NCBI GenBank assembly: GCA_015064735.1
Contig: SVRP01000002.1
Location: forward strand, 146,591 to 210,590
DNA from: Oscillospiraceae bacterium
Lineage (GTDB): Bacteria; Bacillota; Clostridia; Oscillospirales; CAG-272
Length of the DNA stretch: 64,000 nucleotides
Direction: 5' to 3'
Shown: one piece after another, positions 24,061 through 26,775 of the stretch
How positions within the stretch are numbered: the stretch's first letter is position 1
Layout of the letters: each line of letters opens with the position of its first letter
Program-made: the position numbers and the translations under genes
The notes under the pieces: generated by a model
The model's database searches: none
Told to the model about the DNA's origin: nothing
The model's input: only the letters and a program-made list of their open reading frames with translations

Positions 24061-26775
24061 TCAGAAATCTTTTCTTCTCCTTCTTCGGAATACCATAAAT
24101 ATTATTATATACAAGATTGCAGGAATAAAAGAGCAAAGGAAATATGCAATTCCCATAAAGCCTTCCATACCGAACAACGCTCCGAAATCAGGATACGCAA
24201 TACAGAGTCCCCACAAAAACATTATAAACAACAGCATGAAAATAAATGTTATATTTTGATATGCGTATCTCATCCTCGTGTAATCTCCGTTATAGTACAC
24301 CATAACAAACGCTACAACGTAAAGGATAAGGAGCTCGGTAAAGAAAATCTCGGTAGGATAATCAAATTCACCTATTACAAAATCCAATATCTTAGGCAAA
24401 AATACCGCGCATACTCCGGATGCTATACTGGCAACAAGCATGTCCGGGTCTCCTGTGAAATATTCTCGGATACCGTATGCTTCACAGTAATTTTTATTTC
24501 TTGCGGAAATATAACTGCTGCTTCTTTTCATAAATGAGAAAAAAGCAAAGGTATTCAGCACAAATGCTCCAAGAGATATATGCCTTGCATCAAGCACTGC
24601 ATTCCCTAACAGAAGCGGAAGGATAGCCATTAAAAGCGTTATAATATTTACCGATATCATATATCGGATACTGTCGGATATATTGCAGACTACGGATCTC
24701 ATTGACCTAACCGTCGCTGAAAGCGAGGACAGTCCGCCCCCTCCACGTCTCGGTCTGGTTATAAGACAATCCGCTCCGTCTTTAATTATTTGAGTGCAGG
24801 ACGAGCTTCCCCGCTCTCCGGCAAGCTCAGACAACTTTATTTCCTGTTTAAAATAACCTGATACCTGAGGATTTATCTCGGCACACGTGATCAGTCCGTC
24901 TGCGAGTTCAGAAAGCTCCATAGCAATGTCCGAAAAGCCCATTATGAGCACTTTTTTATTTTGAGAGTGAGCATGTGCAATAAGCGATTTAACATCATCT
25001 ACGCAAAAATCCGAATACGTGTTTATACTTCCGAAATTATAAGTCAGAGGCAGTCTGTTTCTTATAAAGTCATCCTTTGAAGAGCCTCTTCCGCCTATCG
25101 CAAAGGCAGGGATGCTCGGATAACATCCTTCACAGTCCACAAAGGATATAACCTTACATCCAAACCGCTCGATATTTCTTATATTTTCTGATGCATTGCG
25201 GTCTATACCTTCGCTGAACACAAGCATTCCAAGGAAGCACTGTCCTTCGTCTTTCCCATTTTCTGATGAGAGTGTAAGAATTATAGGCTTTCTTCCCTGC
25301 ACCTTATACGCACTGAAGGATTTTTCAAGACGTTTTATTCCCTCAAGAGACATTGATCGGTATTCACCGCTATACAACGTATACTTACAGCTGCGTATAA
25401 CGTTGGATACAGACGATACGTTAAGATACATTCTTTTTTCACCGTCTCGGAAAAGAATTCTTTCAGGCCGATCTGCCATGTTGGCAGGAAAATAAGACAT
25501 AATCGTACATCTATACTTCAGCGCATCGGTATCAATTTTCATCTTTTCGATAAATTGGTCGATTCCGTCGTAATACGCACCTGCTCCGCTTATGCCCGTA
25601 GTCAAGGATCTGTTGGCGGCAACACGGTACAGGTGAGCATACTCTGCTATTAGCTTATACGTTCCGTTATATGATGAAAAATTACGCAGCTCTCCCTCTA
25701 CGCTTATTACACTGTCAAAATGCAACAGTCCGTCGGTTACGGCACAGCCGTCCACCATAAATACGTAATCGGCAGCTGCAAGCTTATCAAAAGTATCCAA
25801 GGATCTTATTACAGCAGCGTCCTTGCCTGTAAACAGCCTTCTTATTTGAGAGGTATAATAAAGCTTGAATGCTGTGCAGGTAAGCTGAGATAAAGTTGTT
25901 GCCGCCAAGGCAAGTGCAGTCAAAAAGGTTACGGAAAGAACCGAATCGCTTCCAACGATTATTTTTTCAAAAATAAAGCTTATAACACAAAACGGAATAA
26001 CCGCAAGTAAAAATACAAAATTAATTTTTGAAAAATGCTTACGCATTTTCTCAAGCACCTTCGGCTCCTTGTTTGAAATCGGAACTCTTATTCCCCCCGT
26101 AAGTGCTCCAAGATAGGTATACTTTCCAACGTCCGTTACAATTGCTCTTGCGCTTCCGTTTTCAACAATGGACCCCGCGTGAAGCATATTGGACATTTTC
26201 CTCGGATCCTTTTCATTAGGAGAAGCCACAAATTCCGCAGACTTGTCCAAGGTAATAAAATTCCGCTTGTTAACTCTCATATTAACGCGGAGCAAATCGG
26301 AATTAACTATTCTTGCATCACAACAGAGTATATCTCCCTTCTCTACAATTATTACATCTCCGACGACAACCGAGCGAAAGTCCATGTGAAAAAGCCTTCC
26401 GCCTCGTATTACCTTTGCCATTGGATAATAAAAGGATGATATAGACTCCATCATGCGTCTGTCTCTGTAATGCATAAACGACCACACGCAAACGTACAGA
26501 GCAACGGTAACAAAAACAGTAACACCTCTTATAATTTCGGATACACCAAAAAACAGCGAGAAAAATGCGCCGAGCAAAAGCAATATCAGAGCAAAATCAA
26601 AAATTATCTCTCCTATCATTTTAATCGGAGATTTACGCGGTATGTAAAAGAGCTCTCCGTTTTTTCTTGCTCCACGAGAACGAGCCGCCTTCAGGGAAAG
26701 TCCTGCGGCGGCACTGGTATTCAACTTTTTTTCAATTTCGTTAATTTCAAGAGAAAACCATTTTTCGTTCTTCAT
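24061..26775 (-). CDS. P-type ATPase homologue with degenerate catalytic motifs (predicted pseudo-ATPase)
   Basis: 904 aa; overall P-type architecture (GDVIIVEKGDILCCDARIVNSDLLRV; NMLHAGSIVENGSARAIVTDVGKYTYLG), but DKTGT->DGCAV, no TGES, no PEGL, no GDGxND. Confidence 0.8.
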   Translation of the reverse strand: MKNEKWFSLEINEIEKKLNTSAAAGLSLKAARSRGARKNGELFYIPRKSPIKMIGEIIFDFALILLLLGAFFSLFFGVSEIIRGVTVFVTVALYVCVWSFMHYRDRRMMESISSFYYPMAKVIRGGRLFHMDFRSVVVGDVIIVEKGDILCCDARIVNSDLLRVNMRVNKRNFITLDKSAEFVASPNEKDPRKMSNMLHAGSIVENGSARAIVTDVGKYTYLGALTGGIRVPISNKEPKVLEKMRKHFSKINFVFLLAVIPFCVISFIFEKIIVGSDSVLSVTFLTALALAATTLSQLTCTAFKLYYTSQIRRLFTGKDAAVIRSLDTFDKLAAADYVFMVDGCAVTDGLLHFDSVISVEGELRNFSSYNGTYKLIAEYAHLYRVAANRSLTTGISGAGAYYDGIDQFIEKMKIDTDALKYRCTIMSYFPANMADRPERILFRDGEKRMYLNVSSVSNVIRSCKYTLYSGEYRSMSLEGIKRLEKSFSAYKVQGRKPIILTLSSENGKDEGQCFLGMLVFSEGIDRNASENIRNIERFGCKVISFVDCEGCYPSIPAFAIGGRGSSKDDFIRNRLPLTYNFGSINTYSDFCVDDVKSLIAHAHSQNKKVLIMGFSDIAMELSELADGLITCAEINPQVSGYFKQEIKLSELAGERGSSSCTQIIKDGADCLITRPRRGGGGLSSLSATVRSMRSVVCNISDSIRYMISVNIITLLMAILPLLLGNAVLDARHISLGAFVLNTFAFFSFMKRSSSYISARNKNYCEAYGIREYFTGDPDMLVASIASGVCAVFLPKILDFVIGEFDYPTEIFFTELLILYVVAFVMVYYNGDYTRMRYAYQNITFIFMLLFIMFLWGLCIAYPDFGALFGMEGFMGIAYFLCSFIPAILYIIIFMVFRRRRRKDF

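Follow-up and report, generated by a model that had tools for sequence, protein, structure and literature searches.

The P-type ATPases of the textbooks are defined by a phosphorylated Asp, and in the Ca2+-ATPase SERCA residues E771 (TM5) and D800 (TM6) are Ca2+ ligands. MecA and McsB are adaptors of the unfoldases ClpC/ClpE. In the P3A plasma-membrane H+-ATPase AHA2, R655 and D684 are equivalent to SERCA E771 and D800, where the Arg provides the Asp with a built-in counter-ion (PMC5387105). One plant paper includes a single degenerate gene product in a list. The literature searched, whose coverage leaves out most subscription journals, held no description of a bacterial P-type ATPase pseudoenzyme family. 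The gene analysed here, from an Oscillospiraceae bacterium, belongs to a large family of this kind, with hundreds of relatives, in which a predicted pump fold is kept and the catalytic motifs of the pumps are degenerate.

Architecture and predicted fold

The gene lies in the window, that is, the whole stretch of 64,000 nucleotides that was analysed, and is described by two features:

24061..26775, minus strand: pseudo-P-type ATPase, 904 aa, with full P2-type architecture (A, P and N domains and TM helices)
25894..26424, minus strand: A-domain region matched by PF00122 (residues 118-294), where conservation in the family is highest

The reading frame starts with ATG and encodes 904 aa without interruption. 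The PF00122 match (E=1.2e-15) is the sole significant one in Pfam; the match to Cation_ATPase_N is sub-threshold, and neither the HAD (PF00702) nor the nucleotide-binding (PF13246) domain gave a Pfam match in this protein. The NCBIfam models of P2 subfamilies matched the N-terminal third alone, with scores far under cut-off, and the nearest solved relative by sequence, the Listeria Ca2+-ATPase LMCA1, aligns over residues 46-340 (E=1e-15). Profile-profile alignment to canonical pumps with hhalign extends over the full length (probability 100, E=6e-58, 840 columns).

The AlphaFold2 model of the protein, calculated with 78 homologues (pLDDT 86.1, pTM 0.83), has the whole P-type fold, and Foldseek matched it end to end with SPCA1, LMCA1, Na,K-ATPase and SERCA, the top TM-score among the matches listed being 0.71 for E1-state SERCA. 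The homology is not due to chance, since a whole-length P-type fold is predicted confidently and matches solved P2 ATPases from end to end; homology, together with a fold comprising A, P and N domains and the M-bundle, places the protein in the P-type ATPase superfamily by descent. A preliminary description of this gene, made from its letters, had proposed a full-length, uninterrupted P2-type homologue and suggested structural alignment as a check, and the intact frame, the predicted fold and the end-to-end matches to SERCA, SPCA and LMCA1 bear the proposal out. The AlphaFold2 model of a divergent family member also shows the full P-type fold and is closest to E1-state structures. The E1-like appearance of both models would fit a held conformation, although the state preference of AlphaFold2 is weak evidence.

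Catalytic motifs, ion site and selection

The equivalents of the hallmark motifs were located both by profile-profile alignment with canonical pumps and by multiple alignment, and all are degenerate:

26257..26268, minus strand: TGES-equivalent, residues 170-173, KRNF, Glu lost
25882..25893, minus strand: PEGL-equivalent in TM4, residues 295-298, LSQL
25741..25755, minus strand: DKTGT-equivalent, residues 341-345, VDGCA
24922..24939, minus strand: GDGxND-equivalent, residues 613-618, GFSDIA

The protein consequently has no DKTGT phosphorylation motif, no TGES dephosphorylation motif and no GDGxND hinge with its Mg2+-binding Asp. The ATP-site Lys of the N domain (KGA) is replaced by Val, with Lys found in 2/80 family members, and the P2 Ca2+-ATPase ion ligands E309, E771 and D800 correspond to Q297, T713 and N741. 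The losses of TGES, PEGL and the hinge had been recognized in the preliminary description. So had that of DKTGT, but the register given there, DGCAV, did not hold: the gapless equivalent is V341-D342-G343-C344-A345, in which the phosphorylated Asp is lost outright (V341) and D342 occupies the Lys position. The alignment of VIRSLDTFDKLAAADYVFMVDGCAVTDG with its counterpart is gapless in MAFFT and, independently, in hhalign, and divergent relatives agree with it (PKDGTFT in L053, DREGALT in L049).

D342 is invariant in the 78 closest homologues, as are G343, D348 and G349, a pattern that would suit an active ATPase with a phosphorylation site re-invented at D342 or D348. However, D342 is off the Asp register and unconserved in the wider family, and the equivalents of the Mg2+-binding Asp703, of Lys684 and of the N-domain Lys515 are lost too; we regard such an enzyme as very unlikely. 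As a retained nucleophile, D342 was rejected on the register and on the divergent members, its invariance among the closest homologues notwithstanding. Judged from the sequence, the loss of catalysis in the 904-aa protein is well supported.

Searching 5.8 billion proteins gave about 80 close relatives, with identities of 33-81%, after which the matches fall abruptly to canonical pumps at 1e-23. These relatives lack the HAD and nucleotide-binding Pfam matches typical of real pumps, and in 78 aligned close homologues the TGES, PEGL, DKTGT and GDGxND columns are degenerate. Among 80 diverse members from three families, D351 is kept in 1/80, T353 in 2/80 and T355 in 1/80, while K515, R678 and D703 are retained in 2/80, 3/80 and 2/80, respectively; this count leaves out the PEGL, DPPR, D800 and N796 rows, D800 being read from other alignments. 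A second protein search added 120 further members, with DKTGT in 0, GDGxND in 0 and the Asp changed to Pro in 107; the TM4 Glu is kept in 119/120 of this subgroup. An intact phosphorylation motif was found in none of the 78 close homologues, the 80 members from three families or the 120 added ones. The degeneration is therefore conserved across the clade, and the orthologues with intact motifs that the preliminary description had named as the finding to speak against it did not turn up there.

Whole-genome searches detected relatives at E<1e-40 in 88/149 genomes of the same family and 50/72 sampled genera, a few rows of the genome list possibly being canonical pumps. A broader profile yielded more strong matches, with canonical pumps as a separate, lower-scoring group (~1e-140 to 1e-153). 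Lengths are usually ~900-950 aa; frames of 1070-1270 aa occur in L144, L149, L150, L153, L158, L198 and L212. A single branch parts pseudo-pumps from canonical pumps (SH-aLRT 100; support 0.998 in a FastTree tree of 80 pseudo-pumps and 63 canonical pumps), the internal order of the pseudo-pumps being uncertain because the trees contain long branches.

In nine close pairs dN/dS is 0.05-0.17 overall (dS <1.5 in six), with the constraint extending to the degenerate P/N region; the catalytic residues are lost throughout a clade that is under purifying selection, as in a pseudoenzyme family. A functionless gene in slow decay might be suspected from the loss of the motifs and the strong divergence of much of the C-terminal two thirds, but reading frames that are uninterrupted in nearly all genomes, the low dN/dS and the spread over most of the sampled genera make this exceedingly improbable, provided that the dN/dS values carry no severe bias. 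A one-off decaying gene is ruled out by dN/dS and by clade-wide conservation. The dN/dS comparison had been among the checks suggested with the preliminary description, and its idea of a protein that would be catalytically dead and yet retained gains from the purifying selection, the clade-wide motif loss and the full P-type fold.

Two further positions concern the ion site:

24637..24639, minus strand: TM5 position equivalent to SERCA E771, Thr713; Arg/Lys in most of the family
24553..24555, minus strand: TM6 position equivalent to SERCA D800, Asn741; Asp in most of the family

Arg/Lys at the first position is combined with Asp at the second in 70/78 close homologues, 69/80 members family-wide and 120/120 from the second search. 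Positions 713 and 741 are both charged or both neutral in 78/78 and 80/80, without a mixed case, a covariation that amounts to about six switches, three of them on well-supported branches. The 904-aa protein, with T713/N741, is among the neutral ones and has lost the pair, as have its nearest relatives. Where the pair is present, as in most members, a bound metal cation would no longer be needed at this site. The likeness to the AHA2 pair is one of position, and the pair would have arisen independently in the pseudo-pump family.

A different reading would make the family a ligand-gated sensor or a passive ion or proton pathway, with the Arg/Lys-Asp pair as a P3A-type counter-ion and a head that senses a nucleotide or some other ligand without hydrolysis. 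The TM5 Arg/TM6 Asp arrangement, which resembles AHA2 R655/D684 (PMC5387105), and the TM4 Glu of the one subgroup are in its favour; the 904-aa protein and its nearest relatives, however, are without the pair, and the ATP-site residues are gone family-wide. We therefore hold a sensor or pathway to be unlikely. The large subgroup that combines the TM4 Glu with a charged ion site does indicate that a residual ion-linked role may remain, which counts against the receptor/scaffold role proposed below.

The clpE-like neighbour

The genes upstream of the pseudo-pump in the window are:

26779..29091, minus strand: clpE-like gene, whose AAA+ unfoldase product carries an N-terminal CxxC...CxxC motif and, as ClpP-type loop, VGF
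29122..29697, minus strand: pgsA-like CDP-alcohol phosphatidyltransferase gene
29744..31084, minus strand: DUF5711 protein gene, syntenic across the family

The stop codon of the clpE-like gene lies 3 nt before the ATG of the pseudo-ATPase. Sixty related loci outside families f17 and f20 were compared, and the upstream side is in view in 58 of them, L045 and L057 being at contig ends. A clpE-like gene is found immediately upstream on the same strand in 56/58, five of the 56 being genes counted twice; this is the conserved genetic linkage to clpE that would be looked for in a ClpE adaptor or receptor. The exceptions are L217:3790-6579, with ABC-transporter genes at that place, and L216:1889-4666, with an unrelated frame. 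The order clpE, then pseudo-pump, is also present in f17 and f20. The genes upstream of the pair encode DUF5711 and PgsA or a CvpA-family protein; a CvpA-family (Colicin_V) gene occurs in the region in 24/35 related loci (e.g., L153:8011-8772, minus strand), and a recognisable pgsA is present in the window and in 8 other loci. On the other side, rpsB/tsf follow the pseudo-pump in the window and in 3/20 longer divergent loci (L142-L161). As they are missing from most divergent loci, clpE is the more stable neighbour.

The clpE gene itself is found order-wide (79/79 genomes). Across most of the order's families, and in part of the family studied here, no pseudo-pump adjoins it. Being older and order-wide, with unrelated genes behind it elsewhere, it appears to have received the pseudo-pump as a clade-specific addition to its block. 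Together with L216 and L217, these cases indicate that neither gene strictly requires the other as a neighbour, which speaks against the partnership proposed below.

Two side observations were made in the genome studied. A second Clp ATPase (G000:C6:40899-42914) is 49% identical to the clpE-like product over the AAA+ part and has no match to its N-terminal 80 residues. At 23707-24015 of the window lies a sporulation gene of the YlmC/YmxH family, whose called GTG start is probably wrong, an ATG at 23997 being preceded by GGGGAGG.

Canonical pumps from the same search are not adjacent to clpE. The near-exception is L147 of genome G204, where a pseudo-pump gene and a canonical DKTGT/TGES/GDGxND P-type ATPase gene (L147:322-3168, plus strand) stand tail to tail. 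A canonical pump as the constant neighbour is ruled out, this place being taken by the clpE-like gene. The dead pump might still regulate a canonical P-type ATPase as a subunit, or act as its decoy, through dimers or through competition for a regulator, its position beside clpE being historical. Canonical P-type ATPases are indeed also encoded in its own genome and in many genomes of the family, and the arrangement in L147 points the same way. In its own genome, however, the canonical genes are located elsewhere, and a near-constant neighbour that is clpE and not a pump makes this account improbable in our view.

Proposed role and comparison with known systems

On balance we lean toward a large pseudo-P-type ATPase family that is catalytically dead and probably works with ClpE as a membrane receptor or scaffold; what ties it to ClpE is gene order. 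The preliminary description had suggested a scaffold, sensor or regulatory role without naming a partner; from the order of the genes, ClpE is the probable one. A P2 (Ca2+-ATPase-like) pump gene would have come to lie behind clpE, probably in an ancestor shared by three or more related gut-Clostridia families. The fold stayed, but the pump would have lost the dephosphorylation motif and the sites for phosphorylation, ATP and ions. As far as the sequences tell, the product would form no phosphoenzyme and pump no ions. Its membrane body and retained A/P/N head would act as a membrane-anchored receptor or scaffold. At the envelope this would recruit or regulate the unfoldase ClpE, working with ClpP, and the membrane proteins encoded nearby (DUF5711 and CvpA/PgsA) may take part. 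In most members the Arg/Lys-Asp pair would replace the bound cation and could fix the membrane part in one state; in the lineage of the 904-aa protein the pair would have been swapped for neutral residues. A more specific version, in which an ion-pump family has turned into an AAA+ unfoldase receptor whose head, fixed in a single conformation, would bring ClpE(P) to the membrane or gate it there, is put forward tentatively, as possible rather than probable.

Pseudoenzymes are known as a kind, and what appears to be new is the instance, a P-type pump that is dead throughout a clade and linked through gene order with an AAA+ unfoldase. A fold that is kept while its Asp is replaced, mostly by Pro or hydrophobic residues, shows that selection can maintain a pump scaffold for a non-pumping use. 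The family offers a natural intermediate series for studying the loss of catalysis, and in gut Clostridia it points to a connection between ClpE and a membrane protein that can be put to the test. It also reveals a systematic naming, the named database entries for pseudo-pumps being 'cation-transporting P-type ATPase'.

With MecA and McsB the family shares the proposed role alone, as partner of a ClpC/ClpE unfoldase; their fold is unrelated, and the pseudo-pump is a polytopic membrane protein. The combination of kept fold, lost catalytic residues and clade-wide conservation is like that of pseudokinases and iRhoms, as presented in PMC7586955 and PMC6451368. Most members resemble AHA2 in the TM5 Arg/TM6 Asp arrangement but, unlike AHA2, have no phosphorylation site, and the 904-aa protein is without the charge pair. 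The closest likeness is to the P2 Ca2+-ATPases LMCA1 (lmo0841), SPCA1 and SERCA, in the sequence of the N-terminal third, the full-length profile match and the fold. In contrast to these pumps, all catalytic motifs are lost, the 904-aa protein also lacks equivalents of E309, E771 and D800, and most of the wider family has Arg/Lys in place of E771.
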